Below, piece by piece: positions 17,322 through 43,820 of a DNA stretch of 64,000 nt. The notes beneath the pieces were generated by a model. That model saw only the letters and a program-made list of their open reading frames with translations. It did not search any database and was not told the DNA's origin. The number at the start of each line of letters is the position of its first letter. Positions within the stretch are counted from its first letter, which is position 1. The translations under genes were made by a program, and so were the position numbers. Source of the DNA: Thuidium tamariscinum (taxonomy: Eukaryota; Streptophyta; Bryopsida; Hypnales; Thuidiaceae); NCBI GenBank assembly GCA_947034885.2, contig OX344750.2, positions 32,040,821 to 32,104,820 on the forward strand, in the 5' to 3' direction.

Positions 17322-17766
17322 TTACGCGTCCCCTTGCCGGCCAACCTTAACGGCAGCTTTCCATGACTCAATCGCTTCCTGGTAAGGGAAATTTTCGAGA
17401 GAAAAATACTGCTGGCCAAACATACGCACAACAAGGGGCAGATGTTTTCCTAACCTATTCCTCTGGCAAGATTTTAGAAATTTGAGAGTTGAGAAACACC
17501 TCTCATCCTCAACTGATCCCAAAACCAAGCAACATCCAATTTCGGCAAGTTTAAAATACTCTGAAATGAGCTTACGCAAATGCAAGGATAGGTGAAGTCT
17601 ACGCCATAGTTTAATGACCGGATTGACCTGAAACGGAGGACCACAAGCTGCCTCAGCATGAGACTTCATAGTCACTTTAAACAACCCCGCCTGGTTGTCT
17701 AAATTGGACGGGGAGAGCATTTCTGGCACAGTGAATGCCATCCCTTCACCAAATGCTTGCCCTTTG
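17322..17766 (-). pseudogene. hAT transposase, C-terminal end (continues from 35330)
   Basis: This is the last part of the hAT transposase whose front lies at 35330-38216. It contains the hAT dimerisation region at the C-terminus, with ISEYFKLAEIGC, then GSVEDERCFSTLKFLK and RNRLGKHLPLVVRM, and ends at a TAA at 17322. The CACTA element at 17767-35329 separates it from the rest. Joining base 17763 to base 35330 (one TTG kept) continues the frame as AKLLNKGQAFGEGM. The 3' flank holds repeated GGGACTGTGGCG-like words at 17040-17170 that may be subterminal repeats. The terminal inverted repeats of the hAT element were not found. Confidence 0.8.
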
Positions 17767-18009
17767 CACTACAAGAAAGTGGGGTTCAATGTGACTACCA
17801 AAAATGACTTTAATTTGACTGCTGTAAGTCATTTTTTTTGGTTTGACTTCTACGTGACTGCAACCACTACAGTCACAAGAAAGTCATTTTCATTGAGCTA
17901 AAATCTACGAGTGTCTAAAATGTACAAAAACAGTATTGTCACCATCTTTTTCTTTCCGGGTGGGTGATGGATGAAAAGGCTGAGTTGGCAAGTAATCTCA
18001 CAACCTCTT

Positions 18010-18235
18010 TATCCACGTCAACAGTCATTTTCTTGTCATTCAAGAGTGACAATGAACCCCTTAAAAATCTGACGTGGACTGCCACGTCAGTAGTCATTTT
18101 GAAGTTGCTCAACAGTGACGACCTACCCTTAAAAATTTGACGTGGACAGCCACGTCAGTAGTCATTTTGAAGTTGTCTCCTAGTGACGACCTACCCTTAA
18201 AAATCTGACGTGGACAGCCACGTTAGTAGTCATAC
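18010..18235. repeat. CACTA subterminal tandem repeats with ACGT palindromes
   Basis: Three adjoining units of about 60 bases contain AGTCATTTTGAAGTTG, then AGTGACGACCTACCC, TTAAAAATCTGACGTGGAC and GCCACGTCAGT. GACGTGGACAGCCACGTC is a near-perfect palindrome with two ACGT cores. Subterminal repeats are the binding sites of TnpA in En/Spm; which motif is bound here is unknown. Similar units resume after the inserted element at 21884. Confidence 0.7.
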
Positions 18236-18268
18236 AGTAGTTCGATTTCAGTCATAGGTGTCGCAACA

Positions 18269-18435
18269 CAGGGTAAGTAAATTCCCTGTTATACTCACAA
18301 AAATCACTGTAGAGTATAACTAAGTGACTCTAAAGATCGAACCCGCGAGATTCTGTGAAGTATCTGGCTTAGTTAAGCGATTAAGATAGGACAACTCCCA
18401 AAACTCTATAATCCGGTTCTAGATCTAGAACCGGA
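18269..18435. repeat. Three stem-loops near the end of the 3.6 kb insertion
   Basis: CAGGG at 18269 pairs with CCCTG at 18284. GTTATACTC at 18288-18296 pairs with GAGTATAAC at 18312-18320. A 24-base perfect palindrome lies at 18412-18435, centred on TCTAGATCTAGA. They lie at the 3' end of the element relative to its ORF and may be structural signals, but the function is unknown. Confidence 0.6.
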
Positions 18436-19524
18436 AATACACAAATAACCCGAGACGACAACCCGTTATCCCGTTCAAAAACTGATATCCTAGCAATCTG
18501 GTCCGGAACGGATCCATTCCTTCACTTTTCCGGTTTCCCGGATTTTATCCGTTCTGTCAGACTGCAACGGATCCGCTCCCTAACGAGTTCCGCTCCTGGT
18601 TTCCTCTTCGGACCAATCCGTTCCGGATGATCCGTCCACACCCGTTCCTCAATCCGGTTTGGTTTTGCCTCTGTTTTACCATCAGAGGGGTCGCCGCTTG
18701 ATTTTGTGAGCGGTAGGCCCACCGCTCCTTCCGTGACTTATAGTGGCTGAAGACCCACTTTCTACCCGTTAATTCTAAATTTACTTCAGATCCGGTTTGA
18801 TCCCTCACAACAATCCAGACAAAGATCCGGACTGTAGGTCACACAGAGATCCCCCGTACGATCTTCTCATACTACAACGACTTTGACGCGACTTTCCGTT
18901 CCTGGGGAGCCAGGTGGCTACAAGTGTATCCGTCCATTCCAACGTCAACCAGAACTCTTCCGTTTGCCACAAAGACGGTGAGACCTCACAGGAGATCGGA
19001 CACTCAACTGGGTTTCCCACCCAGGAGTTCTAGCACGATTAAGGAATCCTTCCCTCTCGTCTAGCCTAACAACGGCTTTCTCACCCGGAATCTTAAGTCC
19101 TAGAAGCGCTGAGGCGCTAGAGTTACACTCCCAACTCTTCTCTACCCGTTCTCATATACTCAGACACGGAAAATAAGCACCAAAGGGAGAATGTCGCCTG
19201 CAAAACCACTTGCGCCTTCCTAACTCCGCGTCGCGCCGCCCTGCCAAACTCGGGAGATACACACGCAAAGCAAGAGAGAATAAAACACACAAAGATAATG
19301 CAAAGGAAAAGACTCCCAGTCCACCGCGAGGGGACTGACTTAAATAATGGGCAAAAAGCAAAAAGTGCCATACAAGTCCGCCGCGATTATCGCTCGGCGG
19401 ATCCGTTCCTACCTACTTCTGAACCGGAACGGATTCCAACCCGCTCCAAGTTCCTAAACCGGACCGGATTTCCTCCTGATCCGTTCCTAAGTTAAAAACT
19501 ACAAAAACAGGAAAGTCCTAATAC

Positions 19525-21207
19525 CTACGTATCCGGCTCTGCTACCCTAGATCCTATAGTCGGGCTTTCCGCCCTACTGATCTGCTCGAAGACCTCGGTG
19601 AGGTTCCGATTCCGTTCTCCGTCTGTTGCAACCGGAGCTCCAGTAACCGGACTCGCAGGAGACTCCGACAACTGAATTGCCGCCTCCCGGTTGCCTGTTG
19701 ACGCTCGCCCTGACTTCTTGGATTGCGGCGTCCTGTCCTTCCCTGGTCTCTGAGGCAACCCTTCGGAAATATCCGGTAGAGACAGATCGGAGAGTCTGAC
19801 CGGAATTTCCGTCAGTCTCCGGCTACAGTCTTCCATCCGTTCGGCCGCCTCCCGAACCTTCACCAAAGTCGTCTCCACCTTTTCGGAGAAGTCGGACAGA
19901 ATCCGGACTATCCGGCTTCCGGATAGTTTCTTCTCCTTGTGCACCTCTTCGTCAAACAGTTGAGCCCGGATGACAGCCGATCCGGGTTCCCCGAATGTTG
20001 CCTTCACGTGCTCCGCCAATTTGACGGTCTCCGCCGCCATCTCCTTGGTAGCGGCCTCGTTGTCCCTGAGAACAAGGAGCTCCGCCTTCAAACCGTCAAC
20101 TTCCTCCTGAAGTTTCCGGTTTTCCTCCTCCATCTTGGCGAGATCCGCGGGCGAGGCGATGCAATTCCCTACCACGGTCGGGAGAGTATGATCCGGTCTG
20201 CCATTGACCATCTCCGCGATGTTCTCCAGGACGATCCGCTTGACCTCCCAATCCGCTCGGATGTTGCACAGGATTTCCGTCAGTTGCACGAACGGATCAC
20301 TGGGATCCGTTTCCTCTGCTGCTGGTTCGGCCTGACCCGGTTCGGAGGGTCCCGCTCTGCCTTCCGTTCCCGGATTGCGTCGGACCGGAGGAGATCCCCT
20401 CGTGTTCGGCGGTGTGGTCTTCTGCCGCTTCACGAGCGGAACTTCCGGTTCCTCTTCCTTATCCGAGTCCTCCCGCTCTGTCTCGGACTCGGAGCCCTCC
20501 TCATCATCCGTTGACGTCTCCCCGTACGTCAAGACTATCTTCTGGGTGTGCCACGTCTTCTCTTCCGTATCCGAAAGGAGCTGTAGATGGTGGTAGAGGT
20601 GGAAGAGGTAGGGGGAGATCGGAGTTGCCCTACTCCCTCCGAGGTTCTTCAGTAACCGGGCGATCAGGTCCTGTATGATCCGGCCCCAGTCCACTTTCCG
20701 GTCTCCGATCAGCGCACCGAAAATGGTGTTGGCCAGGCCGATCGTGATCCGGGTTGGCTTCTCCGGATGAAGGATCGGAAGCAGAAACTTCAACAGGCGC
20801 CTATGCCTGTCTTCGTTGCAGTCCATGATCCGATATCCGTCCTTCGGGTGAGGGGTGCCACTGAACTTGTTTTGGAGGAAGTCTACCTTCCTCTCGGCCG
20901 GTCCGTGCCCCTGGTGTTTGAACCCGTATACGGCCCTCCAGTGCGCCTCCGTCCATTTGTGCGGCATTCCCCGCGCCGTGTTGTCGAACTGATTCGACAC
21001 CTTGCCCTTCAGCTCCTTCACCATCCGCTCCTCCTTGAAACCCCAGGGTATCTCTGCTAACCCTAGACACCCCATGGTGGTCAAGTCCGCCATCAAGTTG
21101 CCTTTCTCCGGCTCTGTAGTAGGAATGAGCGGAACTACTTTCTTTAGTTTTATCCCTGAGGGTGGGGGTGTAGTGGACTCGGTTCTCTTCCGGTGTGGCT
21201 GCGGCAT
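19525..21207 (-). CDS. 560-aa ORF with plant-transposon-type N-terminal domain
   Basis: An open reading frame of 560 codons with an ATG at 21207, inside the 3.6 kb insertion. The N-terminal half (about residues 20-220) has the layout EDRHRRLLKFLLPILHP, then GALIGDRKVDWGRIIQDLI and PYLFHLYHHLQLL. This resembles the 'putative plant transposon protein' domain (Pfam PF20167 type) found in plant retroelement-related ORFs; the match is from memory, not a search. An acidic stretch follows at about 233-258 (DDEEGSESETEREDSDKEEE), then a Pro-rich basic linker, a predicted coiled coil at about 350-410 (MEEENRKLQEEVDGLKAELL) and a Ser/Pro-rich tail. No protease, reverse transcriptase or integrase is visible, so any movement would depend on another element. 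It looks whole. Confidence 0.6.
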   Translation of the reverse strand: MPQPHRKRTESTTPPPSGIKLKKVVPLIPTTEPEKGNLMADLTTMGCLGLAEIPWGFKEERMVKELKGKVSNQFDNTARGMPHKWTEAHWRAVYGFKHQGHGPAERKVDFLQNKFSGTPHPKDGYRIMDCNEDRHRRLLKFLLPILHPEKPTRITIGLANTIFGALIGDRKVDWGRIIQDLIARLLKNLGGSRATPISPYLFHLYHHLQLLSDTEEKTWHTQKIVLTYGETSTDDEEGSESETEREDSDKEEEPEVPLVKRQKTTPPNTRGSPPVRRNPGTEGRAGPSEPGQAEPAAEETDPSDPFVQLTEILCNIRADWEVKRIVLENIAEMVNGRPDHTLPTVVGNCIASPADLAKMEEENRKLQEEVDGLKAELLVLRDNEAATKEMAAETVKLAEHVKATFGEPGSAVIRAQLFDEEVHKEKKLSGSRIVRILSDFSEKVETTLVKVREAAERMEDCSRRLTEIPVRLSDLSLPDISEGLPQRPGKDRTPQSKKSGRASTGNREAAIQLSESPASPVTGAPVATDGERNRNLTEVFEQISRAESPTIGSRVAEPDT

Positions 21208-22604
21208 GGCAACTATCCGGAAAACTACCTCACTTCTCTCCTAGCCGCACGTCCCGTTCCTCACACACACTCACAATGACAGACAAAACTAAACCGCCCG
21301 TAATAATCACCTGCACAAAAACACACACAGTCCTCCCGCGCACACCAGCGCCTGGGCACACCGTCTGAAACCCGCGCACACTGACAATCGCCCGCCCTGA
21401 CAAGTACCAGGCGCTACCACTGACAGCCGCGCCACAGAAAGTCGCGCCACCAAACACGCGCGGAAAACCAACTCACAGAAAAGGCGGAAAACGCTGAGGG
21501 TTGAAAAACACACAACGAAGCGCCTGAGAGCAAATGGGCCAACTGAAAATGTCAGGCCTTATATAGTTTCCAGAAATGGATCCGATCTTCCGTTCCTGAT
21601 CATCCGTTCCCGTTCTCATCCGATCGGTCCAAGTCCGGAAATCATCCGTTCCGTTCTGGGACTGAATCCGGATAGAATCCGTTTTGTAGGGTCCGGAATT
21701 TTTCCGTTCCGGTATTCCGTCGTAATAAACCGGAATTATTCTGCCCCCGGTCTCTACAACATTATCTGGTACTACTTCTGGATCTTACCCATTCCCTGAA
21801 CAAATCCGGTTGCTAAATTTTCCACTTTCCGCTCCATACTGACTTTAAATGGAAAGATCAAAAATATGTCTTGCCACAATAGGGGACCCTTTCAAAATCT
21901 GACGTGGACTTCTGTAAATGTTAATAGTGCGACAGTCATTTTGAAGTTGGATTCCAGTCATTTTTAAGTTCCGTTCTAGTCTTTTTGCAGTTGGATTCCA
22001 CTCATTTGTAAGTATGAGTGCAGTCATTTCAGAGAGATGTTCTATTTGGAACACAGTATGTGGGGTAGACATATATGCCATTGCCTCCACAAATAACTTC
22101 TGCAGTAGTGGGCTAGTGCGGTTTTGGTTCTGTTCTAGTCATGAAAAATGACTAGTACATGGTAATGACAGTGGTGACAATAATATTACGGCTTCAGGAT
22201 TTAGGGTTATTTCTCCATACACAATGACACATGACTATACATATCACTTGTAACTTCAATTGTAATTTAAAGCATTAGAGAATGACTTCTATGAACTCCA
22301 TTGAATGAATACTATGGAGCTAAAAAATCACCTTCCTCACTAGAAAAACATTGACATGCAAGACCCAGCGTGTAAGAAGTTAGTCATCATACACTCCTAT
22401 GTATTTGACAACCAATATGACAAAAATAAAAGTGCTGCATTAAAAATAAAGGACAATGTCAGGGCTAGGGGCTGTAAACCAGCACTTACAAATAGCATCA
22501 TGTGGGTCCTCAAAAGTTTGCCTAATGCACACCCTATACTAGTCTTTGCTACCCAGTCCTTTGTCGAGAGGAGAAAACCTGCTGGCGGCAGGACAAAAAT
22601 CGCT

Positions 22605-25600
22605 TCAACTTACAAGTTTTATGTGCTTTGTATGCCACAATGCAGACAACCCCTTCGCATCTTCTATTTTTTGCATGTCAGGGTCTCCCGCAGGCATCAT
22701 GAGTGCCACCCCAAGATGCAAAATCGAGGTGACATCGACCTTCAGCCACAGCTCTGGAATGTCCTTGAAATGGAACTTGTATTCCCCTAGTAGTCCACTG
22801 ACCTGTCCCTTTGCCACCTTTTGACGTGTAGACCGTGGGTTGAAAAGGTATACTTTGTTTCCAATGTCAAACTGCAATATGCCAAGCGTTCAATCCATCA
22901 AAATTTGAGAAATAATTCAACAAGTATAAAACTAACAAATGACAACTTACGAATGTGCCACTTCACTGCTACTTGACTTCCTTTTGACTTCATCACGACT
23001 TGTGGATCGCCATTTGGCTATAATGCGACTATTTCGCTACTGATTTTTCACTTCATCATCACTTCTCTACAACTATTCACTCTTCATGTGAAATTAAAGA
23101 AAAAAGACAAATGAAGAAGACTTCTACCGTATTCAAAATTAATCTAGGGTTACATGAGCACCTTCTTAGAGGACGCCTCCCGTTGCTTCTTATTTGTCCC
23201 CACCGTTGCCTTCGCTTGAGAGTCTTGCTGCTTCTGCTTCTCCTGCATTAGACCAGAAAATTAATTAGAAATATTGTGAAACAAAAGGTGAGGGGACATT
23301 TACTCATTGCAACCACATGGATTGCGATTCCCCTCACCTTCAACAACATCAAGAAATTCATATGGTGACCCCTGTTGGCGTTTGGAGATCATGTCATCAA
23401 CTGATTCCTTCATTAACGATGGGTACTTCAACCGAAAGGCAGCTACAGAGGGACAGTCGCACAGAGCCTCCAGTATTGGCCACAGGTAGCACTTCAAGTA
23501 CTCCTTATCATCAGCCAATGAGATAAGCTCCGACACATAGAAGGGAAGATTCACAATGACATTTTCTGGGGGATTTCCAGCGACCCTACAATGTTTACTA
23601 TCTATGATGATAGTATTCTGAACATTGAATTCGGGCCACGCAGCATAAACTTTCGACAAACTCTTTCCCCATGTTGTTGGCGCTCTAGGCCCCCCATCCC
23701 CGAATTCACATTGCTTCCCCAACCATGTAAACAACGGACTGCAGTTCGGACCCCTGAATGGGCCAGTCATGAGGGTAGGAACCACATCTTCCATAAAAGA
23801 CATGCTCTTGCTGCCCCAGAAAGCCACTGCAAAGTGCTGAAAACAGCGGGAGAGGAATGGTTTCAGCCACGGCCTCAGTACCACTCTCCTCAAACTTGTT
23901 TTCAACGTTGGCCTGATTTTGGTGTTGGGATTCTTCTCACTAAGCAGGCTACAATCCAATAATGTTCCTTGTACATTCAACACTATTAACTTCAATGTCC
24001 CGGGAGAACTCGGTCCTGTCCCTTGACTTTGAATGTGTGAAGGGCTCTCTTTTGCCAAATCATTCTTAGGAACTATAGAGGCATCATGTACCTTCACTAG
24101 AGGTTTCACGCTCTTCTTCTTCTTCATCCGAGAAGGTGAATTTTCGAGGGGGGGATCTTAGATTGCCTCCACATGAGTCACATTTTCCTCCGCATCAGGC
24201 ACTGGCCGGCTAGAGTCCTCAGGAACTTTAGCTTTCTTCTTCGTTTTCTTCGGAGGGGTGCGAACTTCAGTGGCTTGAACATCGACATCCTCAACATTAA
24301 GCACGCTGTCTTCTGCATTCACCACTGCCTGGCTACTGTCCTCCTTCCCTTTGGCAGCACTTCCAACGGATGCAGCTTTGCACCCCTGTCCGTCTACTTT
24401 GTTGACGGCATCCTCCTGGGGTAATTCTTGAACATTCAAGGATCCACTGACAAGGCCTTCTTGAACCATGCTGTTAGACTTAGCATGGTTGCCTTTGTCT
24501 TCTTCTTGCACTAAAACTTGCACCTCGTCAAGGACTACATAGACTGGCGTTTCTTCATTTCATGTTCCGACATTCAGCTTCATGCACTCTTGTGGTGATT
24601 TGGTAGCTGATGTACCTCCATCATCTTGAACTTCATGCTGCACTTCAAGCATAGGAACAACATCAGAGTTTTGGATTGGAGACTTTGGCGGAGGCATAGT
24701 TCTCTCTTCAGACACTGGCTCATCTTCTACAGGGACGCCTTGCATTGATTCAGCGCGGCCAAGTCGACATGGAGGCGCTGGGTCTTCCTCCCGATTCACT
24801 ACCGTCGTCTTCCGAGGACCTCCTGCTTTTACAAGTTTTGGAAGTGCTTCCAGTTCCAACTCGTCCTCACATGGCAAAGTAATATCTTCTTCCATCGCCA
24901 ATTGATGAATCGAAAGCTTTCTCCTCTGTGACATATCCTCATCGTTATGGGCCTCCTTTAATTTGGACTGCCTATCCGGAATTTTCACTTGACTCATGAA
25001 GTTCTGGAACATATCGCGAAGTTCCTCGATAGCTGTAGATTGTGACGAGGCACTCTTCACAAACTGGTCCATCTTCACATCTACATCCTTCTTCCATTCC
25101 TCCATCACGGACATTGTAACAAATTCACCTCCTCCTGTGCTCTATTCCCAATAATGACATTGGCTTTAGCTATGAAAGTGTTATGAGTGCCACCTTCTCA
25201 ATGGATAAAATGAGAAAAAAATCAAGTGTTTCAAAAACTAATTCTGAACTCCAGTTAAACCTAAGACTGAAAACAAGAAACCGGACAACAACAGAGTGGA
25301 AAGCAAACAACATTGACTAACAACTGCGGCATCACTCGTCAACAACTACAGTATGACTTCCTAATGACTACAACGTCACTTCTATACAACTTCAGTATGA
25401 CGACAACATCACTGCCACAGTCATGGCTGAACATAGGAAGGTCCTCTATTGCAACCTTAATTCAGAAATGGAAGTAGCCCCTTTCTAAGAGTACAATAAA
25501 TGCATAAAAAGTCACACATGAACTTCTAACCTTTTCTTGACTAAACCCTAGAGCAAAAAAATGCTGACACAATATGTTCTGTAGACTTAAAAAGCACAAA

Positions 25601-27333
25601 CATGCCCTCCAGTAGTCCAGTGACATATGAAGTACCGAACTTGCACTCCAGAGGTCCTCTCAATATTCTTGGATTCATGTTATGATATTCAAGGGTGTGC
25701 TGAAGGAAGACATTCTACCTTCATTAGAATTCAAAATAGAACACCATGATTGAAAAGCTACAAAGGTTCAGGGCCACTCACTGTCCCTACTGTTTGATCC
25801 AGTGAAGTGGTATCGAAGCCCTTGACATCGTCATTCATTTGGAGCTTCTTACGTCTCCCGTCGTTGTCCTACATCCAAAACCAAAATAAATTCACATCAT
25901 TCTAACGAATGTGAGCACATACATTATCCCCATCTTATAATGAGTGCACTAAATTACAAATTACAAAAGCAAAAACAAAAGAATGTAGGCAGATGATAGG
26001 GGTTTGTAAGGTCCACTCACCAAGTGACCTTCCTTGACAGTTTTCGGTTTTCTACTCACTGCAGACATATTCCCCACACATTGTCGAGCAACAGCCATTT
26101 GTTCCGCCTTGAATTGTTGCTTCTCAGTTGACCAATAATGCTTCAAGCGCTTCCACTACTCCCCGTTGATTCGGATTGGGCAACTCTCAATTCCCTTCAA
26201 CCAACGGGCTTTCAACCGAGAGCGCTCCGACTTCATGTACTTCGTGATGAGTGTCCTGAATCCAATCATGCTTAGTGGATGTGGGTAGTACTGGAATTCG
26301 TTGTCAAGCGCATCCCTCAACTTCTGAATTGCCATGGGTGTCTACTTCCCATAATTGACAATGCTCATGTCCAGTATCTTTGGTACGAAGTTGCGAACTG
26401 CCTCATCCCAGGCACACTTCCCCACACAGGTGCTATCAATCTCACCATTCTCCAAGACCTGAAGGCGAGCCGATTTTGCTACACCTGATCGGTCAAAATC
26501 GGGTACAGTACGCTGTGGTCGCCGAAATCCACTATCTTGATCGTCCTCCGTAAGCAAAGACCCTGACCACTGAGACTGGTAAGGCGGAGGCGGCATTTGA
26601 GTCCACGGAGGTGCTACTTGCGACGGCTGCGTTGGCATGTAATGCCCGAGCACCTAATTCCACTACGGCAAATGCCCTGCGCTTTCAGGGGCAGAATCCA
26701 CCGTCGGAGGTCTTGGAGCATTGTACTTCTTCGAAGACTTCTTCTCCACTTGCATCCGACGTCGCTTCCTGGTCTTTGGCACAGGGATAGGGTCTTCCGC
26801 CTCCAACGAGATATCCTCATCGCTAGAGTCCACGACTTCCTGATCCGCCGCTGCAAGACAAAGAAACCACCAAGGCGAGTGCATTAGCATGGCCTTACAA
26901 TAGTCTCCAAGAAATGCCAAAATCGCAACAGTGGGCCCTCCCTCCGAGCTAGATAGAACTGAACCCTAAAACAACTACATTATTGGCAGCGGGACAGAAT
27001 TAAGAACCACTACCTGAACCCTAACTTCAACATCAAGAAACGTGATGCACATTTACCTGCCGCAAGTGCTCTCGACGTGGCCTCGTATTGCATATGGTTA
27101 CAAGCAATGCCTAGGGTCATCATACCTGCAGCCATGGCGTTCTCATTTGACTCTGTCGCTTCCGACGACGAATCTGTGTGGCCGCTCATTTGGTCTGCAA
27201 ATCGCACCTGCCTGCGCCTCGTTGAACCGCTTGTGTCCTTCCTCTTTGTCCGTCTTCTAATCGTGCAAGGCTGAGGTTGTCCTTCCTGTACGATTGTCTC
27301 CTTTGCAATATGCCTGTCCCTACAGGGATACAA
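22605..27333 (-). pseudogene. CACTA TnpA-like gene (Transposase_24 type), decayed
   Basis: The second gene of the CACTA element, on the strand opposite to the transposase. Exon 1 runs from about 27333 to the donor GTATGATG near 27130; exon 2 starts at 26850 after a TTGCAG acceptor. From 26340 to 25990 it contains a Ptta/En/Spm-type DNA-binding domain: MAIQKLRDAL, ERSRLKARWLKG, WKRLKHYWSTEKQQFKAEQM. A small exon lies near 25790-25869, then a long exon region 25114-23300, and a last recognisable piece at 22871-22605 with the layout of the En/Spm Tnp1-type C-terminal domain (GNKVYLFNP, AKGQVSGLLGEY, IEDAKGLSALW). In-frame stops occur at 26663, 26654, 26342, 26156, 24560 and 24158 (first base of each minus-strand codon is two higher); most are TAG. 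TnpA normally binds subterminal repeats. This copy is unlikely to make protein. Confidence 0.65.
23300..24127 (-). pseudogene. FCP1/NLI-type phosphatase-like segment captured in the TnpA-like gene
   Basis: A 275-codon stretch has the order of a small CTD-phosphatase (HAD superfamily) domain: LIVLNVQGTLLDC (motif I position), RPWLKPFLSRCF and VAFWGSKS (motif II), FTWLGKQC, WGKSLSKVYAAWPEFN (motif III Lys) and NTIIIDSKHCRVAGNPPENV (motif IV). The family removes phosphate from phospho-Ser/Thr proteins using a first Asp in a DxDGT or DxNG motif. Here that Asp is Asn (codon AAT), and the motif IV pair DD is DS, so catalysis is not expected. It lies between the TnpA DNA-binding part and the Tnp1-like end, in the same frame as the preceding segment. 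That placement suggests capture of a host gene piece. No intron was seen inside it. Confidence 0.6.
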
Positions 27334-30300
27334 TTATAAATGCATGCACACTATCTACAATCCAACAACCGATAACGATACTATTTCATTTGAAACTCGG
27401 CAAGTGGGCAACGTCTGCAATAGCCTACATACAATGTGTAAAGTGCAAAGTGGGTGCTAAACGCTAAAGCATCAAGTTCCAAGGAGGAAACAAAGAAATG
27501 GCTTATACTTTGCCCTTCTTGAGAGGAGGGGGTGCGCTTTCCAAGACAAGCACGCATTAAATGCAGGACTGTGTCTCCGTGACTACAACGTGACTTAGAA
27601 GAAGTCGCTCAAGAGTGAAGAGTCATGTTCTGTGACTTCCTCACGACAACAAGCTGACTGCAAAGGTGCTGACATGTTTGGCGGCGCTTAATAAATAAGC
27701 AATGCAACGGCTAACCCTACTGCGCCGCCAAACACAAAATTCCATGAGGAAAACTTCACTCACATTAGAAGACACACATTGAATTGAAGAAATGTGACGC
27801 CTTAAGGCAGTAACTGCCATAGATTGATTTCGGTGAACAAAAGAAGGGTTTGGGTACCCCTAAACCAGTTCTCCGATTTGAATGGGCTCTCACCATCACA
27901 ATGCTCCTATAGCGCACGTCAATTACCAGTGAAACTATAGTAGAGAAGAAGACGCTAAGTGATACTCCCGTCATTAAGTTTTCTATGCGCCTTTGAAGGT
28001 TCATTCGACCACTACTCGGAGAAATACACGCCTACACCGTCGCTCTCATTGTACTCAGGTATCGCTGTTCACATTACTCTTCTACTTGTATTGGAAATGA
28101 ATTGCGAAGATGGTGTTTGAGTTACTTACAATTCCTCTCTCGCTTCAACGGCAGGTCGCATTGCTGCCCGAACGATGGCAACATTCTCATCTCGTCGGCG
28201 CTCGTATTCCGACTTCTCCGGCGAAGGACTCTCCATCGGTAACAACTGATGATTTACAGATCGGGGCTGCTCTCAATGCAATTCCTCTCTCGCTCTACTA
28301 ACTCAAGAGAACGTCTTCAGTCGATCACACAATTGATAGAGGAATTGCAACTACGACTACTCGCAACGGAGACTCAAGGAAGTCGCGGGAGTGGGCTTCC
28401 TCTCCTTCGTCCAAGTACCTCAATTGCACATTGGAAATGAATCCCCTGCATGTTCAACAGCCAGGTTTCCATCTGAAATGCCAACTTGCTTGAGGGAGGT
28501 GGCTTTCATGATTGGGGAAGATGGTTCTGGCGGCTGACCATTAAATGCAGCAAATCACAGGTAATCACTAGTAATTATTGTAAACTACAGAGTTGTCCTT
28601 GAACTCCAAGTTCATGGTGTTCCACTCATTTGCATCTATCATTGGCTATGAAATAGTAATGATTAGATGGGACTTCATGTTGTGGGGTAGGTGTCAAAGT
28701 AGGCCTCCTTCTAATAAGTAATAGGTACACCTGGTAATTGAGTGATTTAATGGGCTTAGGGTCCACATTAGGCCTACTTAGAGGCCCAAAACTTCTATTC
28801 TACTGGTACCAGTAGCCTGGAAGTTAGAAGTCGTATGCGTGACTTCTAGGCTACTTGAAGAAGTCATTTCTAAGTAAAGACGTGACTGTTAGACAAAGAC
28901 GCACAGTTGGAAGTGTTGAATACCAAAGCTACTTTTGCGAATTTGAACACCCCCCATCCATTTTGGTTTGTGCAAAATTTTCTATCAATTTTTTCCCACT
29001 ACAAGAAGGATTTTGTGATTGTCTTCTGGAGTTTTTTCCCATTTCTATAGCGTATGTCATTAAACTTGTTGCATATAATTGCAAGTCCTTTGGCAATGGT
29101 TTGTAAACTCACCCATTCTATACAGTGGATGCAATGGTCATTTCATATTTTTTTTGTGGTAAAAATTATGGTGTTTCCATTTCTGCAGTGCTGTAAGTCA
29201 TTTTTTAATTCGTCAGCAAGAGTGCCAACCATCTACTTCTGAACCTTCTAAAATGTAAATACTCGTTCCTATATTTGAGTGCATTGTCCCTCATTCTTGG
29301 TTTGGAGAGTTCTTATCTTTACAGTAAAATGCACTTGTTTCTTGGTTGAAGTAGTACTTGTCAAGAAAGTTAAATGTTTTAGAAGGGTTGTAAACATGCT
29401 GCTCAAGTATAATTGAAGGAGCAATCTTAATTGTGAGTTGCATGTGTCATGAAGTTTCGGCAGTAGATGTGTAAAGATGTCCTTTGTCACCACCTTACTT
29501 GAAGGAGTCTCTAATTTGAATTTCAAAGCACATTTGCAAAGTGTGGAAACATGCTGACACAAGACTTCACCTTCTTGTAGAGAGATGGACCAAAAAGAGG
29601 GGGAAAGAATTTATTTTGTAATGCTGGATTGGTTGGCTCGAAGACACACATCTTGGGCTTTTCTGAATACAGCCAGTGTTGATGACATCCTTCTTTTTGG
29701 AAGACTTGCTATGTCAACTAAATCTGGTCTGCAATACCTGAAAGCATGGGAGGAAGTTCACACAATACGCATGAATTGAATATTATTATTCCAGTAATGA
29801 CTCTGAACTTCCTCACTTGCACTTCCGTTAGAAATTGTTGTCCAACTATCGTCTCTTGTTGTCTTGGTAATTTCTTGGTCTACTACTATGTGCCTTTTTG
29901 TTCTCTTTATCTATACATTTGTCCGTAATTGTTTATCTACACATGCAACCCTACCCCTTTCAACTTATATGTCTTTTCTCTTTATCATGTTGTATGTATT
30001 TTGTTTCTTGATTCCATTTTGAGTTCATACTGTACAAAGAACAAAAGTTCTTGAGCATGTTCCCAAACTAGAAATATCCTAGATAACATGTAATTCATAT
30101 CCTCTCAATTTGAATCTGTGCACAGTGAGAAGAAGTTCATGATTCCGCCGAGTGTGGATTGAGAAGCACTCGAACGCAATCACGTATTAACCAAGTCACA
30201 TAAGTCTACTTTTTCCTGACTAAATGAAGTCAATAGGAAGTCATACTGTGTAAGAAGAACTACAATATGACTATAGGAAGTCACTTTGAAGTCATTTTCC

Positions 30301-30507
30301 AAAACTGTCTTTGACATTAGTCCCTCCATGTAGGCATGCACTCCTTCTTTCAGTTGTAGTGGAACTAATGTCATTGCATGGCATGATGTGACTCCAGAGC
30401 AACAACAGTCACTCATATCCTTCATCTTGACAATGATACCTGCTAGGTTGCCCCTGTCTGATAGCCATAGGCAACAGCTATGAGATGAACGCCTGTGGAC
30501 CAGAGAG
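27334..30507. other. Central region between the two divergent CACTA genes
   Basis: About 3 kb without a convincing gene separates the starts of the minus-strand TnpA-like gene and the plus-strand transposase. It presumably contains both promoters and leader exons. Repeated GAAGTCATTTCTAAGT and AAGTCATTTT-like words resemble the subterminal repeats. Short ORFs at 28110-28440 and 29585-29779 are unrecognised. An AT-rich patch at 28900-29560 could be a further insertion. Confidence 0.4.
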
Positions 30508-33500
30508 GTGCAACGTGCTTCAGAATTGAACATCACAAGATTGCATTGCCCTTGCTGCAAATGTAGGGGCCACAAGCGACTACTCATTAGGAATGTTCGC
30601 GACCACTTGATTCAATATGGACGAGATCCACAATCACGTAGGTGGACAGGGCCAGGAACCTTGGATTCCTCTGATGAAGAGTGGGAGCGGGAATTCTGGA
30701 AGGAGCCAGAGGAAGTGACACCAAAAGTGGATGAAACGGTAGATGTTCGTGGTATGCTACAGCAGGCTTCCCATACAGTGGACGAGGTCCCATCCGTGCT
30801 GGAAAGATTTGAAGAACAAGTTCTTGATGCATTTGCAACAGTTAATTCCATCCAAGAAGACTGTATAGAGTTGGACACCGACGAGGGTGTTGACAGACAT
30901 GAGTGCCGTGATCCGCCGCACAAAGAGGATGCAGAGGAACATGATGATGCAAGGGAACAAAACTTAGACATGAGTGCCCTGGAGAAATCGATGGATGCTT
31001 TGTACGTTGGTGCAAGGTCCAGTAAATTAGCTGCAACAGTGCTCCTCATGAATCTGTGTATAGTGCATGATGTGAGTAATACTTGTGCTAACGAATTATT
31101 TAGCATCCTCAATCAACATTTGCTCCCCGAGAATAACTCCTTACCAAAAACATACCACGCAGCAAAGACCTTGACGGAGAAGCTAGGTTTGTCATACAAT
31201 AGCATTCATGCTTGTGAGAAAGGGTGCGTTCTTTTTCGTGGAGAGTATGCGGAGGCACTTCGCTGTCCAAAATGTGGCGGCCAAAGGTTTCGAGATGAGT
31301 GACGGAAGGCCTTTCCCTTGAAGGTACTCCGTCACTTCCCCATTATTCCACGCTTGAAGCGGATTTTTAGAAGCCCTACGCTGTCAAAGCTCATGGTATG
31401 GCATCATGAAAATCGTAGCGACCAAGAGGGAGGGGACGGTCTCGTGCGACATCCTTGTAATTCGAAGGCATGGAAGCACTTCCATGACAACGTAGACCCT
31501 ACTTTTGGAAGTGATCCGAGGAATGCTCACTTCGCATTGGCAGCGGATGGGGTGAACCCATTCAAACAGAACCGGTCCACTTGGTCAACATGGCCAATAC
31601 TGTTATTGAATTACAATGTCCCCCCTTGGCTTTGTACAAAGAAATTCTTTGTACTTCTCATCCTTCTAATTCCTGGAAAGGAGTCTGTGACGTCAGAGGT
31701 TTTTGATGTGTACTTAGAGCCAATTGTAGAAGAATTGTTGGAATTATAGGCAGGAATTCCTGCATATGACGTAACAAAGGATGAAGGGTCTAGGGAATTT
31801 CAAGTCCGTGCCATGTTACTGTGGACTATTCACAACTTTCCTGGATATGGGACAGTGGGAGGATTTGCCCATCAAGGATACGCAGCGTGTCCATGGTGCG
31901 GTGTGAATTTGGGTGCCGAACATTCGCAAGAATTAAACAAACAAACATATGGTAGAACACGGCGTTGGTTACCGGAGCAACATCTGTACAGGTCAGCACA
32001 AATGAAAGACCTTTTCAATGGGCAGATGGAGACCAGACCTAAACCTAGGGAAGTTACAGTTGAGGAGCAGTTGGAAAATGTGGCTGAATTTGAAGAATGG
32101 AAGAGCTCCGGCAACAGAGAAGGCAGCAAGGGAGACCCATCAAAACTCCATGGTTGCAAGCGTATGAGCATACTGTTCAGATTGCCTTGGTGGAAGGTGA
32201 GTTAATTAATATGGCTTACTTTGTAACCCATAAAAAAAGTTTACAGTGCAACAGAAGTGAATGGTGTATGAAAGTAATCATAGGAGTGATTAAGAAGTTA
32301 GAGGTCAGTCGAAGGCAGTTGCATTAAGTGACTTCGTTGAGTCATTATGTGACTTTGTTGAGTCATTATGTGACTTTGTTGAGTCATTGTGTGACTTTGT
32401 TGAGTCATTATGTGACTTTGTTGTGACTACCCTCAACCCCACAACTAGTTTGTGCTGTGAAGACTGTCGATGTTCCACAATGTCGGCTTCGTATTCTCTA
32501 GTTTTTGTAGACCAAAGTACTAATTGTTTCTTTCAAAAATTTCACATACCATGTGTAGGATCTTCTCATTCGAAACACGCTAGACCCAATGCATTGCGAA
32601 ATGAACTTAGCGAAGAACTTCTTGAAAACTATCACAGGAAAAAAAGACACTGTCAAGGTCAGGAGGGACCTCAGGAGGCGAAATATAAGAAAGCACCTTT
32701 GGTTGACTCCACACCCTCGTAAGCCTGGTAAGATGGTGAAGCCAAGAGCAAGCTATGTATTGACAGATGAGGAGTTTGAGAAATTTGTCAAGTGCATTGA
32801 ATCCTTGAAGACACCAAGCGGATATTCATCTGATATTGGGAAGTGCTTGAGGAAGAAGAATTTTGGAGGATTGAAATCGCACGACTACCATGTGCTGATG
32901 CAGCAAGTGCTTCCTCTTGCATTACGAGGGCTACTGAAACCTGGTCCTCGTTTGGCTATAATGCAAATGTGTAAAGTGTTCCGTCGCCTGTGCACTAAGG
33001 TTTACAACCCTGAAGATTTCGATTCACTCTGTGCAGACGTTACTGAGAGCATGGCATTGGTAGAGATAGAATTCCCTCCATCCTTCTTTGACATAATGAC
33101 GCATCTACCTTACCATCTCGCAAAGGAACTTGACTTATGCGGCCCAGTTAGTGCGAGGTGGATGTATCCAGTGGAGCGATACATGAAAGTATTAAAAAAT
33201 CATGTCCGGAATATGGCTCGACCGGAGGCATGTATGGCAGAGGGGTATCTCAAAGATGAGTGCATAGGCTTTGTTACAGAGTATTTGCAGAAGTTTGAAT
33301 CTACACAAAGACGAGTTTGGGACGAAGATGAAGAGTACGGGGATGCTGAAGAGGTCCTGCAAGGTGCAGGGAAGGTATATTTGATGTCCACTGCACTACG
33401 AGACCTTGCCCACGATTACGTCCTCATGAACGTAGTTGTCATGGAAGATTTGTATATGTAAGTGTTTTCATCAACCATTTAATAGAAAGTAATTTCTTCA

Positions 33501-34568
33501 GTCGATCATGTAGTTATGAAAATGGTATACAGTCTAACTGGATTGGCAGTTATACTTTGATGCACTGCTAGTCATAGAACACAACTTGTTCAGTGGCGAC
33601 TAAGTCATACAAAGTTGCTATAAAGTTGTCTTGAAGTCATTTAGAAGTCATGAACCAAAACCATTCTACGTCTATATCTATTCTGAAAATCCATAAAACG
33701 TTCATCACTTGTATTATGAATGTCTAATTCATATATCATTTTCTGCAAACGACTACAGATGAGCATTCAATAAATAATTTTTGTGGTATGAATGTAATGA
33801 TTACCTTGACATCATCATTTGTTTGGGTGGTTTCATAGGAAATGGAGGGATGAACAATTGGCAAATCCATCTACTCCAGCATTAGCGGATTGGATGGAGA
33901 GCACTGTTGGGAATTCTACTCTAGATATACGAAATCCTGACGACCAAGATCGCTTACTTCTCAGTAAGAAGCCATCCCAAAGAGCAAAGAGATACTCCCG
34001 TATTACAGCTTTTGGAAACCACTTCCGTGTAGACGATGCGAAGACTGCCGGACTTCGCAGTTACAATAGCGGTGTGGCGTCAATTTTTGAGTCGCCTTCT
34101 GAGAATGGTCGGGAATCGTCCGTGAACTACGTCGGGGTCCTCAAGAATATATTGTTGCTGGATTACGGAACTCTACATACACAGATCATTCTCTTGCAGT
34201 GCGAATGGGTGAAGCCTCATGACAACAGAGGGAATGAAAATTATATTCGAGACGATGCTGGATTCTTACTGGTAAACTTTCGGCATTTGCTACCTCGAAT
34301 GGCAGAGCCATTTATTTTCCCCAGTCAGGCCACGCAGGTGTTTTTTTCAAATGTTGTGGAGAAACTTGGTTGGAAAATTGTGTTACGAAAAGAGGCACGA
34401 CCGAAGCGGGAGGTTGTGGAGGTGACAGATGCCTTCATCACTACAACGTCTGAGAGCGCCGGTTTAATTGCTCCAGAGATGTGTCCAATTCCATCAGAGG
34501 TAGTGAGTCTTATTGGAGCCATTGAACTATCTGAGGAAGAGAATGTATTAGCACAAGAGGATTATTAG
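30508..34568 (+). pseudogene. CACTA TNP2-type transposase with DUF4218 and DUF4216, two in-frame stops
   Basis: Exons 30508-32196, 32559-33457 and 33839-34568, joined by GTGAGT/TAG and GTAAGT/TAG introns whose phases close, total about 1105 codons. The N-terminus has a transposase-associated zinc motif (CPCCKCRGHKR). The TNP2 core follows: LGLSYNSIHACEKGCVLF, RCPKCGG, MVWHHENRS, FALAADGVNPF, WTIHNFPGYGTVGG and the exon-2 start DLLIRNTLDPMHCEMN. DUF4218 covers exon 2 (LPLALRGLLK, PYHLAKELDLCGPVSARWMYPVERYM) and DUF4216 exon 3 (YVGVLKNILLLDYG). In-frame stops at 31300-31302 (TGA) and 31747-31749 (TAG, where the family has Trp) break it. The true 5' end is unclear: there is no good ATG, and an upstream TGA lies near 30480, so a leader exon is likely. 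Confidence 0.85.
32330..32425 (+). repeat. 21-bp tandem repeat in transposase intron 1
   Basis: The unit TTGAGTCATTATGTGACTTTG repeats about four and a half times, nearly unchanged, within the first intron. The unit contains TGACT/AGTCA words like those of the subterminal regions. Confidence 0.8.
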
Positions 34569-35329
34569 TTTCGTTTGTCACTTCCTTGCTACATCATACA
34601 TGCAGATCAATGTTGTCTTACTTGCACTGTAAGCATGTCCAACTATGTTGAACAATTGCAGAAAATGTAGTGATTTTCTTCATGTTTTTTCCAAGCATGT
34701 AAAGACTACATTTTTTGAGCTTCTTGTCCCTCCATGTATAAAAACTTTTAATTCCTAAACAATAGTATTCAATTGTGGCTCAAGTTTGGATGAACAAAAA
34801 TTCTATATTTATAACCCTTTGATGCAATGAACATGCCAAAAATGTTTACTTGCCAAGAAAATATGCTACAAGAGTGGGATAGTATTCATAAGTCATTTTG
34901 AAGTTGCTCAACAGTGACTTCTAGTGGGGCAATATGACTTGTGATGACTCCTGGGTAACTCATCCCTGCAGAATGGACATGTTAGCACAGTCACATCCAC
35001 GTAGACAAAGGAAAAAGACCTTCTTTATCCTTTAGTTAAAGAAAAGTCATTAAGTAGTTGTTAAGTAGCGACAAAATGTCACTGAGACCTTTTATGACGT
35101 TAAAGAATTACAATACTGATGAAAAATGCAAAAAATCGGGATTTTTCATCCCCTTTTCATCCACCAGTGACAGACATGACTAGAAAATGACTTCCTCGCT
35201 CTTTCTCATATCCACAACGTGCAATTAGAGAGGTACAATCACGCAGAAGTCATTTCATGTAACCACAGAAAAGGTGCTCGTGACTGCAAGTCACCGGAAA
35301 GTCACTTTTTACCCCATTTTCTTGTAGTG
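34569..35329 (+). repeat. CACTA right subterminal region
   Basis: Follows the transposase stop. It contains AGTCATTTTGAAGTTGCTCA at 34891 and several further AAGTCATT and GTGACTT words, ending with the terminal CCCATTTTCTTGTAGTG. No gene is present. It mirrors the composition of the left subterminal region. Confidence 0.7.
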
Positions 35330-38216
35330 TTGTTTAGGAGTTTGGCTGAAGAATAAAATTTCTTCAGTACCGCCAAGTGATGGACAAAGCTCTCATCGGC
35401 ACCGTCCTGGCGCCAGTATTGGGGATAGATTATCCCGAATGCATCGAGAAGGTCCTGTTGGGGGAACCTTCTATCAAGCTCGTCACACAAGCATTGGGCC
35501 ATTTCTGCACACATTAAACCCTTCCTATTAGAAGCACTCATTCACTGAATAACAAAGCAAGTCTGCCAACGGCCACTGGAAATTCCGATCAACATATTTT
35601 AAGCTGCAGCAGAGCGACCATGAGGATGAAGACCTTTTATAACTCAATGATGCACTTATGCTCTCATCAAACCTGTCTACTGTAGTGATAAACTCACAGG
35701 ACCACAAAAAAAATTGGAAGCCTAAACAACATCACCCTATTAATTTTTCCTTGCAACAAAAACTAACACAAGTACCACAGCAAGCTTCCGCTCTCCGTCA
35801 AGCCATCTCACCATCTGCAGCGATTAACTAGAAACAGTCACTAAGAAACAAAAAAAATGGGGAATAATTTCAGATAAACTGAAGCAGCTAAGAAAAAAAT
35901 GGGGAACAGTTACTACTGAACTGAAGCAAGCCAAGAAAAAAAATGGGAAAAAGTTTCTGATAAACTTAAGCAAGCCAAGAAAAAAAATCGGGAACAGTTT
36001 CTGATGAACTAAAGCAACCAAGAAAAAAAATTAGGAACAGTTCCTGAACTTCCGATTAAGTACCAAAAAATCCCTGTACAACACAAGAGAGGCAATGAGG
36101 ACTAAGAAACAAAGACATCGCAATGGCAATGACCACGCCGAGTCTCAGCCTTCCACCTGCTGTGACAATCACAGAAGGCAGAAAAAAAAATTAGAGGTAT
36201 AATCTCAAAGCACCATCAGTAGTTCACAAGGTATGCATCCCACATGGATCAATAGAAGCTCAAAATACTTGAGAAAGAAAATGAAACGAGGGACTTGCCT
36301 GAAAATTGGCGTTCAATATTGTCCTGGACTCTGTTGTACTCTTCCTGTGTCACAAAAATGTGGTTGCCAGTCTGCTTGTCATGGCAACGAGCATACATGG
36401 TTGTGTGCTGAAAATCAAATAGCAAATGTGAGAGACCAGAGTCCCCACAAAGTGGCCGCCAAGCCAAAGGAATCTCAGGGCAGGAGAGAGACACAAGTTC
36501 CTTGTACCATTGGAAATCAGTCGCTGAGTATGCTGTGGCGCTGTTTAAAAATATGCGGGCCAACTCACTCTGGCAAAGCTTTACAGTTTCCAGAAAATCA
36601 CAAATGAATATATCACGAGACTGAGAGAGCTTCATCAGATTATGTACAACATTCACTAATGGAATGAAGCAGGCAAGGGAAAGCAACAACTCAATATTAG
36701 CTAAGAAATCGAAATTGTCGGCAGCTCCAGTCTGCGGCTTATGACCAGGGAGGGAAGTCATGTCGGCCCCCATCTTTACCAACAACGTCCGATATTCAGA
36801 CATGATTCGAGCAGCAGGGCTTCTCATAGATATCCATCTAGTTTCAACATTTCTTACCATCTTGTTACCTTTAGTTTCCATGAGATCAGCAAGTCTCTGG
36901 AGCTCAGCATGACGACGGTTGCTGCGGCAGAAGTAGGCATATATGGACTGAAACAAGCTCTCAAGCCTAGAAATCATTGGAAACTTGGAAAGTGTTTCAA
37001 CCACGAGGTTCAAACGGTGACTTACGCAACTGGCCCCAATCAGAAACGGAGCCCATTTCTCACGAATTTGGGTGGTTACACCCGTCTTCGTTCCTTGAAA
37101 TGTACTCACTCCGTCAGCCCCAAAGCAAACCAATTTTGAAGCTATCTCTTAACGAGATAAGCCCCCCTCACCCATCAAAGTATGCATGATAACATCAGTC
37201 AAGTGATTAGCAGTACCATTCTCTGAAACACAAGAGAGGTGGAGTAGATGAGGCACCCTCTCCCATCCCTGCATGGCATAAACATGGACACCCACCCAAG
37301 AAGTATTGTCTACAGTTGTGACTTCATCTGCATTGATAGAAACAACATTTGCAGCCTGGACAATACCCTTGATGGCAGCAAGAATAGAAGCATGCAAATG
37401 TTCACTCATTTCCCAACCTGTAGTTTCGGACCAGTGCTTTCTCGGCAGATTTTTTACCTTCAGTTGCCGAAGAAGCTGCTGTTGGCGCTCATAATCACAC
37501 ATTGGATGACCATGACCAAGGATATGCAAAAGGGTTGAGAATTGAACTCCCTTTTTTTTCATGTCGCCCTCCAAACTCCCCAGCAGCTACTCAGCCACAA
37601 AGCCTACATTCTTCTGCCCCACCCAAAGTTTGCAAAATTGCAAATGCCTGCAGTCTCGTTTGATGTACACATCGCCCTTCTTGAGATGCGGCTCTGGAAC
37701 CCCATCCTCTAGGCAGGAGCGCTTCCCTTCATGTTTCTCTAGGTTGTCCAATTTTGGAACCATGATTTTGCGCCTCCCCGTCACCACAGTGCAGCTTCGG
37801 CAAACGACTCCAACCACATCGCCATCGGAGTTGAATTCGCCTTCTACCCATGCAAACTTGCATGCCCACACCTCTTGCCAGCGTTGGGTGATCGTGCTGG
37901 GTGCGGTTTTCCTCTTCTTCCGCCCCGTCGCTAGCACCGATTGGCCTCTCTTCCCCGCCACCGCGCCTTCACAGACACTCCCCGCCGCAGCGCCTTCACA
38001 AACACTCGTGCTTGCCAAGATCGGAGACAAAATTGTCACCTCCGACGGAGGACAATCTGGTGGCATCGGAACTGAATCCACCAAGCGAGTCTCGGAAACG
38101 TGGGTAATGCTCATCAATGGCGGCGGCATCATGTATTTTCCCATGCCACTTGTATTGCGGCTGGAGCCGAAGGTCCGAACGCGAAAGTTGTCGGGCAATT
38201 TCAATCGAGGTGCCAT
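35330..38216 (-). pseudogene. hAT transposase, N-terminal and central part
   Basis: Exon 1 38216-36299 and exon 2 35504-35330, continuing beyond the CACTA insertion at 17763-17322; the total is 2535 bases (845 codons) with closed phase. The start ATG is at 38216. A BED-type zinc finger lies at about residues 115-165 (WACKFAWVEGEF, VVCRSCTVV, LDNLEKHEGKR). The hAT core includes VVSINADEVTTVDN, GADGVSTFQGTKTGV and SCVSHRLNLVVE, then NVETRWISMRS. Two in-frame stops, TAG at 37587-37589 and TAA at 37149-37151, break it. Exon 1 ends in a GC-type donor (CAG then GCAAGT), unusual but a known class. Exon 2 begins EMAQCLCDELDRRFP. The transposase would excise and reinsert hAT elements, but this copy is dead. 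Confidence 0.85.
35840..36050 (-). repeat. About 46-bp tandem repeat in the hAT intron
   Basis: Four to five copies of a unit containing AAGAAAAAAAATGGGGAACA, then GTTTCTGATGAACT and AAGCAA follow each other, with a few changes between copies. It lies wholly within the single intron of the hAT gene. Confidence 0.7.
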
Positions 38217-42488: not shown

Positions 42489-43820
42489 TAAGTTCCATCG
42501 TGATTACGTCGAAGTTACGGCCTTTCAAGACTTATATGGCTAAGAACAGCAGAAGATGATTTGTCAGAGGTTTCTGTTCTCGGCCTTCTGGCTGGACTTG
42601 TCCTTGCATGTGTGACAAAATGCTGTGACCTAAAGAAGTAACTTACGATTTAAGCTTAAGGTCCCTGCAGACTTGGCGTTAGGGCCCAATAAGGTTTGAC
42701 CGCTAAGTGCGTAGTTTCATTGTCCTTTTAATATAAAAAATTCGCAGCATCCACGAGGCAGAGGATCATATACACCTGTTTAATATGTGCTCTACGTAGT
42801 TACATGCTTGTTCGCACTTGAGCGGTAAGTTCCGTGAGCACAGAACATAACTTCACATACGTCCACTGTAAACATTGCCCCTGTCACACCTGAGTATTAA
42901 CCATTAACTTGGAAGGACTGAGTGGGTTGCTTTTGCAGTTACGGTTTTCGACAGCAAGAAAATCGCTTCCTCACGGACCTCACGGAACTCGCGAACTGGG
43001 TTGTTCCTTCAGTTCAATCCGAAGAGCAAAATTTCTAGATTTTTGCCGACGTTCTTCTTGCTTTGAAAGTAACCAGGTCTCATATGCAAAGCTTGTCGCT
43101 CTTACTCCGTCGCGTTTGCGTAAAAATTTGGTTGCTTACGGAGGAGGGTGCACACGACAGTGTTCGACTTTCGCTTGAAATGCGGAAGCATTTAGCTCGC
43201 TACCTATTCACTTGAAGAAGAGCTGCACTGAGGGAAGTCCACCGACAACAAATTGAGGTAAATCTCTGACCCTTCTGAGCGCGCAGCTGAAATTTCCAAC
43301 CATTTCAAGTAGTGTTCCGCTTGTCTCACTTTTGAATTCGGAGACGTTCACTTAGGGTTTCAGTTCGAGGACTAACACATCGTCGGCCACGATGCAAGAC
43401 CCTTAGTCCTCGAAGTTAAGACAAGCGTCGACACAAACGGAAAGCTGTGATTCCGTTTCTCAGGTCTCGTGCTCTCATCTTCGTCAAATACACCGGTTCG
43501 GTCGACATCGCCGACCACAGCGCCGTTTCCAGGTACCCCACACCGAATACTGAGAAGCCCTGCAATGTCTTCTTAATTTCACTTCTGATGCTGGTATCCT
43601 TCCATTGTACATGTGATTGTTTTCAAACACTCTTTTCTTTGCACACTCTGTGCACATGCTATTACCTCAAATTCCCATACCGTACTTGGCAATGCATGTC
43701 TTCACAGAGGTCTATATGACCGACGAATGTTTCAGTTAAATTCGGGAAAACTTCAATTCTTTTCATGTAGAAGGAAGTAATTCACGTCATCCCTTTGCAT
43801 CCTTGCAGGAACAACGTGCC

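Follow-up and report, generated by a model that had tools for sequence, protein, structure and literature searches.

A NIF-type pseudophosphatase domain in the TnpA-like gene of a CACTA transposon lineage of Thuidium tamariscinum

The closest described system to the mobile element considered here is En/Spm, a CACTA transposon in which TnpA is needed together with TnpD. CACTA elements can, in addition, carry pieces of host genes. According to one account of En/Spm, TnpA binds subterminal repeats, and this binding can block RNA polymerase (PMC2613891). The present element lies in a 64,000-nucleotide stretch of DNA from Thuidium tamariscinum (the window, by which the whole stretch analysed is meant), and it shares with En/Spm the CACTA termini, a 3-bp duplication, a Transposase_21 domain, AAAATGACT repeats at the ends and a separate TnpA-like gene. 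It differs in that this gene runs divergently to the transposase and includes, besides a NIF domain, a C-terminal exon of its own, and in that its TnpA similarity remains below threshold in Pfam.

The NIF domain (PF03031) links the element to a second body of work, that on the FCP1/SCP CTD phosphatases of the HAD class. In HAD enzymology, the two Asp residues of the motif I signature D-x-D-x-T act as nucleophile and acid/base, and further catalytic roles belong to the Ser/Thr of motif II, a Lys and a metal Asp. The CACTA domain matches the NIF profile over nearly its full length and keeps the Thr, Ser/Thr, Lys and Asp positions, but it has N-x-H/Q-G-T where the phosphatases have D-x-D-x-T, and it is embedded in a transposon protein. 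UBLCP1, an active phosphatase, is a distant relative, and its structure (PDB: 3shq) is the only PDB sequence match at E up to 1 (5.9e-5 with the window protein alone, 1.1e-5 with the family profile).

Fungal Tim50 offers a precedent for a domain of this kind outside catalysis: it is described as a preprotein receptor whose CTD-phosphatase-like domain has neither a perfect DxDx(T/V) motif nor phosphatase activity (PMC8346121). Tim50, however, belongs to mitochondrial import and not to mobile DNA. Among the titles and opening lines of abstracts listed in open-access literature searches, none describes a CACTA protein with a NIF or CTD-phosphatase domain.

The CACTA element and its divergent partner gene

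Positions 17767-35329 of the window form a CACTA transposon, with CACTACAAGAAA inverted repeats, a TTG target duplication and a transposase of the Transposase_21/DUF4218/DUF4216 type. The left terminal inverted repeat (17767..17796, + strand) is 30 nt long, starts with CACTACAAGAAA and is directly preceded by TTG at 17764-17766, while the right repeat (35300..35329, - strand) is 87% complementary to it and directly followed by TTG at 35330-35332, the target site duplication on both flanks being 3 bp. The transposase gene, of the TnpD/TNP2 type, occupies 30484..34568 (+); its Transposase_21, DUF4218 and DUF4216 matches in Pfam exceed their cut-offs (Transposase_21 in two pieces, E 2.4e-35 and 4.2e-21), and a Transpos_assoc match falls slightly under its own. 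In 1.4 kb of the ends there are 11 occurrences of the 9-mer AAAATGACT (9 left, 2 right), versus two in 10.9 kb of the interior, a concentration as expected of TnpA-type subterminal sites, which these repeats putatively represent.

A second copy of the element, on C3, is 95.7% identical over 13.4 kb and is free of a 3.6-kb insertion present in the window. This later nested insertion (18258..21879, approximate limits, no strand assigned) is flanked on both sides by ATAGG and is not part of the CACTA element proper. It contains a 571-codon open frame at 19525-21240 (-), which has no Pfam match above cut-off, and no internal direct repeats of at least 40 nt were detected in it. Elsewhere in the window, open frames at 43740-45281 and 36249-37148 resemble, by eye, pieces of PIF/Harbinger and hAT transposases.

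The partner gene is encoded on the - strand, divergently from the transposase; it comprises a TnpA-like exon, a linker, the NIF domain and a conserved C-terminal exon, with approximate exon limits. The TnpA-like exon (about 25964..26965, -) is interrupted by stops in the window copy, and a probable upstream exon at 27010..27333 (-) is suggested by similar open frames seen by eye in the C3 and C7 copies. Linker and NIF domain share a single frame, 23303..25141 (-), which in the window has in-frame stops at 24560-24562 and 24158-24160 and in the C3 copy is open for 613 codons. The C-terminal exon (22608..22889, -) lies 414-1163 nt downstream of the NIF match, and on its strand, in 30/30 loci read. 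The window copy of the transposon is decayed, because in-frame stops occur both in the linker/NIF exon and in the transposase, where four of them fall across the stretch matched by a 590-aa frame of the C3 copy.

The preliminary description of this locus, made from the sequence without database searches, had called the two ends of the partner gene TnpA-type and Tnp1-like. Both proved to be conserved exons of one gene family, but the names themselves fared less well. TnpA-like exons from 10 elements, those with a usable open frame among 16, align at 46% mean column identity, and 6/10 of these relatives match Transposase_24, all below cut-off (best E 0.0017; 19.0 bits vs 28.7); the window's own TnpA-like pieces have no Transposase_24 match in Pfam. 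For the C-terminal exon, a Pfam search of 3 proteins gave no match in any of them at E-values up to 1.

Two copies, L010 and L011, have a short Lys/Arg-rich frame of the QEKQKQQDSQAKATVGTNKKQREASSKK type immediately past the NIF exon, as judged by eye, and this could represent a small exon that encodes a nuclear localisation signal. A separate observation concerns the C7 copy, in which the NIF gene and the transposase are 23.6 kb apart; a 704-codon frame with a RING-type zinc finger (L042:3998-6109, -; best E 4.9e-6, slightly under cut-off) sits between them and is perhaps a nested insertion.

The NIF domain and its altered motif I

An open frame of 285 codons (23303-24157, -) covers the NIF region of the window. 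Within it the FCP1-type pseudophosphatase domain extends over about 23456..23992 (-), where residues 56-234 match profile positions 1-155 of the 160 in PF03031 with an E-value of 8.6e-11 and 42.2 bits, against a curated Pfam cut-off of 21.8. The earlier view of the segment as FCP1/NIF-like is thereby confirmed, and its placement inside a CACTA TnpA-like gene is supported. A HAD-type fold is predicted for the domain on the strength of the HMM matches; the single-sequence AlphaFold model of the window segment has a mean pLDDT of 33.

Motif I, at 23952..23977 (-), reads N-V-Q-G-T-L-L-D-C in place of D-x-D-x-T. The replacement of the first catalytic Asp by Asn had been noticed before, and the codon is indeed AAT (23975-23977); the second motif-I Asp is gone too, with Gln in its stead. 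The same holds across the family. In the 30 copies read, which are the 30 best of 127 matches and not a random sample, motif I is invariably N-x-H/Q-G-T where active enzymes have DxDxT: the nucleophile position is Asn in all 30, the acid/base position is His in 28 and Gln in 2, and the Gly and Thr are kept in every copy. Motif II has Ser in 25 copies and Thr in 5, the Lys is present in 30/30, and the Asp of motif III, likewise found in all 30, is followed by Ser in 29 and by Asn in one. The loss of catalytic residues that had been proposed from one copy is hence seen in all 30. The supposed change of a DD pair to DS needs a different reading: DS is what the sequence has, but the pair is not cleanly lost, its first Asp being kept throughout, and DS by itself is not a sign of death because an SCP-like protein of the same genome (L001) reads VDN at the corresponding position.

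A degenerate DNA motif pattern extended this survey to the whole genome, where its Asn form occurs at 52 places, the Asp form of the identical pattern at none, and a reversed-pattern control likewise at none. All 52 places lie inside the 113 loci of the NIF family described below, 19 of them within the 30 copies read, and reading and pattern together cover the motif I Asn in 63 of the 113 loci, the other 50 falling outside that coverage.

Since both motif-I Asp residues are lost, the known HAD mechanism implies that the CACTA domain would be unable to dephosphorylate a substrate by the standard route. One might still suppose an unusual HAD hydrolase that employs another nucleophile, as most of the other pocket residues are intact; with nucleophile and acid/base Asp both replaced in 30/30 copies, and no place in the genome with the Asp motif, we hold continued enzymatic activity to be very improbable.

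Spread, capture and constraint

With the window NIF protein as query, 127 matches were obtained from the 136 of 142 candidates that were scored, and these merge into 113 loci distributed over all 11 large contigs. The segment is therefore not confined to the window copy, and other CACTA copies holding it, which the preliminary description had anticipated, are plentiful. A search with the transposase of the C3 element (76 matches merging into 74 loci, with the best 74 of 696 candidates scored) located the NIF gene divergent from the transposase and within 30 kb in 66/74 related loci, at 6.2-12.7 kb in 57 of these 66; the NIF domain was in some other arrangement in 5/74, and 8/74 had none in the expected place. 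Among the other Transposase_21 matches listed, only 4/121 are within 30 kb of a CACTA-family NIF domain, and at least one of the four (C6:4984931) looks like a further true transposase/NIF pair. Counted from the NIF side, 66/113 loci pair with a related transposase among the matches listed; a first count, made with the best 150 of 627 Transposase_21 candidates, had paired 27/113. A query with the TnpA exon (best 125 of 260 candidates scored) gave 117 loci; in 103/117 of them NIF follows on the same strand at most 20 kb downstream, at a median distance of 1.9 kb, and in 14/117 there is no NIF in the expected place. The NIF domain marks one CACTA lineage and not CACTA elements at large, because, among the matches listed, it accompanies 66/74 related transposases versus 4/121 others, and 103/117 TnpA loci.

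Three of the 14 NIF-free TnpA relatives were read. L074 (C5) has the TnpA-like exon, a coiled/low-complexity linker and then the C-terminal exon; L075 (C6) has the same exon and linker followed by the start of the C-terminal exon, where the stretch ends, the exon having been matched separately; and L073 (C3), a more distant relative, has the TnpA-like exon and linker. In tblastn searches of these three loci with two NIF queries no match had an E-value under 0.64; the positive control, L012, reached 3e-165. Because NIF is absent from 3/3 of the NIF-free relatives read, it appears to have been acquired by this lineage, and in the simplest history its insertion, at the end of the linker exon, would date back to the lineage's ancestor. 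Loss of NIF in these relatives, in place of gain by the lineage, is a possible alternative history. Two other NIF-free TnpA loci, at 52% and 60% identity, may be truncated members.

In a genome-wide search for the NIF family, among the best 150 of 466 candidates, 17 overlap the CACTA family and 133 do not; of these 133, one is within 20 kb of a Transposase_21 match among those listed. Motif I of the non-CACTA domains is mostly D-L-N-G or D-M-N-G among those read, and four of them (L043-L046) match the CACTA domain in a profile-profile comparison with a probability of 96% and E 4.8e-9. These families (L043-L046, L064) resemble the CACTA family in having a related profile and in being repeated, one query giving at least 138 matches (best 138 of 535 candidates), but they are situated away from Transposase_21, retain the first Asp and the DD pair in the aligned members, and have other proteins as neighbours. 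A further copy of L062 is 85% identical to it. The search for a host parent gene, expected from the earlier idea of a captured host gene piece, came out negative: no single-copy parent was found, and the nearest relatives read belong to repeated families. A tree of 13 of the 30 CACTA copies and 8 other NIF domains gives good support to the CACTA clade; long branches make its placement among the other groups unreliable, however, and for this reason no parent is claimed. Of that earlier idea, then, capture stands, favoured by all three NIF-free relatives read, but what was captured is a near full-length, constrained and lineage-wide domain and not a fragment in one copy.

Several observations on the other NIF groups were made in passing. 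L043, L044 and L045 (with L069, L071 and L072) are dispersed repeats in which a D-L-N-G NIF domain is accompanied by a neighbouring protein that bears an INGQHSxxAS-type motif; by eye the latter looks ParB-like. For two such proteins, L043:351-872 and L044:3-1310, and for the next frame in L045, Pfam gave no match at E-values up to 1. Two copies of this repeat family share more than 8 kb. At L070:4598-5602 (-) a NIF-like protein with the motif E-V-Q-G-T and a DS pair adjoins a GGQHTVTA protein that resembles the INGQHSxxAS one; the group appears repeated, and it looks like a putatively independent loss of the catalytic Asp. Contig C11, with 17.5 Mb about 5% of the genome, has 52/133 of the non-CACTA NIF matches listed, and our guess is that it is possibly a sex chromosome or an otherwise repeat-rich one.

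The repeated families with related NIF domains in the same genome could be taken to favour another role, in which the CACTA domain has no part in transposition and serves as a decoy, mimicking a host NIF-family protein and so blunting a silencing or transcription pathway. We judge this improbable, for the domain is fused to a DNA-binding partner gene and not free-standing, and the target of such mimicry is not known.

The dN/dS comparison between copies proposed at the outset was made pairwise under NG86, on non-independent pairs with mostly high dS. For the dS bins 0.3-0.6, 0.6-1 and 1-3 the medians for NIF are 0.22, 0.25 and 0.17 (56, 54 and 185 pairs), that is, 0.17-0.25 above a dS of 0.3, versus 0.40, 0.45 and 0.47 (55, 43 and 146 pairs) for the linker. 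At dS 0.1-0.3 the values are 0.27 for NIF vs 0.94 for the linker (4 pairs), and in recent pairs, with dS below 0.1, the median omega is 0.43 for NIF vs 0.54 for the linker (44 pairs), a weaker constraint as expected if copies decay after insertion. Of the 435 NIF pairs, 89 yielded no value and 3 belong to none of the bins. Across 10 elements with TnpA, NIF and linker, NIF dN is lower than linker dN in 45/45 pairs, and the median omega is 0.10 for TnpA, 0.17 for NIF and 0.41 for the linker (12, 30 and 33 pairs with an estimate out of 45); 6 of a set of 14 TnpA stretches are left out of this comparison. With dN/dS well below 1, selection seems to have preserved the NIF domain.

These values also bear on whether the domain is a passenger, a captured host fragment carried without function. 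The known capacity of CACTA elements to carry host gene pieces, and the stops in the window copy and many others, would suit such a passenger. Nevertheless, NIF runs through the lineage (103/117 TnpA loci and 66/74 transposase loci among the matches listed), long frames are open in many copies, and NIF omega is well below 1 and below that of the adjoining linker; on lineage-wide presence and dN/dS we reject this reading, which retains hardly any probability. We are instead highly confident that the NIF domain is a captured, lineage-wide, dead and constrained module.

A putative binding module at the element ends

If the usual route of hydrolysis is closed to the domain, while its pocket is kept and it is fused to a TnpA-like protein, then the domain probably functions as a binding module, and these three features are our grounds for that reading. 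The mechanism we envisage would start with a CACTA lineage taking up a whole NIF-type HAD domain, which came to lie in the linker exon of the TnpA-like gene, followed by the loss of both motif-I Asp residues while the other pocket positions were retained under constraint. At the element ends, the TnpA-like protein would recognise the subterminal repeats and, through its NIF domain, hold a partner protein in place. This partner would most plausibly be a phospho-Ser/Thr peptide, gripped without hydrolysis, and candidates may include the RNA polymerase II CTD and a phosphorylated chromatin or transposase subunit.

Conservation of the pocket alone cannot separate ligand binding from maintenance of the fold, and the main competing proposal is a scaffold, in which the HAD fold would persist for protein packing alone, for instance in a TnpA oligomerisation that joins the ends, and the pocket is free of ligand. 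To this proposal, which we place a little short of an even chance, belong the loss of both motif-I Asp residues and the many invariant columns outside the pocket in 11 aligned copies (e.g. DDKEYLKxYLWP and YEFxDxVEGEG), but the Ser/Thr, the Lys and the motif III Asp, kept in 30/30, seem to exceed what packing needs.

For the binding module, the strongest hint of a ligand may come by analogy from crystallography. The SCP1 constructs 6du2, 2ghq and 4ygy have, in their PDB sequences, Asn at the same position as the CACTA domain, and the related 2hhl and 2q5e have Asp there. The Asn constructs were presumably made as a trap, to hold CTD or other phosphopeptides; no printed account of the SCP1 Asn mutant was found in the open-access literature. 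That the CACTA domain binds phosphopeptides is accordingly put forward tentatively, as a suggestion whose chances are well under even. A more specific version would make the domain a natural substrate trap, in which the evolved Asn and its grip on a phosphopeptide tether the TnpA-like protein to transcribing Pol II or another phosphoprotein; we think this unlikely, though, if true, it would link transposition, or the suppressor role of TnpA, to the host transcription machinery.

Gene capture by DNA transposons is usually viewed as a matter of short-lived cargo. In the CACTA lineage described here, a captured enzyme domain seems to have become a permanent, non-catalytic component of the transposon machinery itself; by its residues it is dead as an enzyme, and it is kept in more than 100 loci. 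Should the NIF domain bind phosphoproteins, it would tie a CACTA element physically, in a direct and testable way, to signalling or transcription in the host, and would be an instance, arisen by evolution, of the substrate-trapping mutation that is introduced deliberately in biochemical work.
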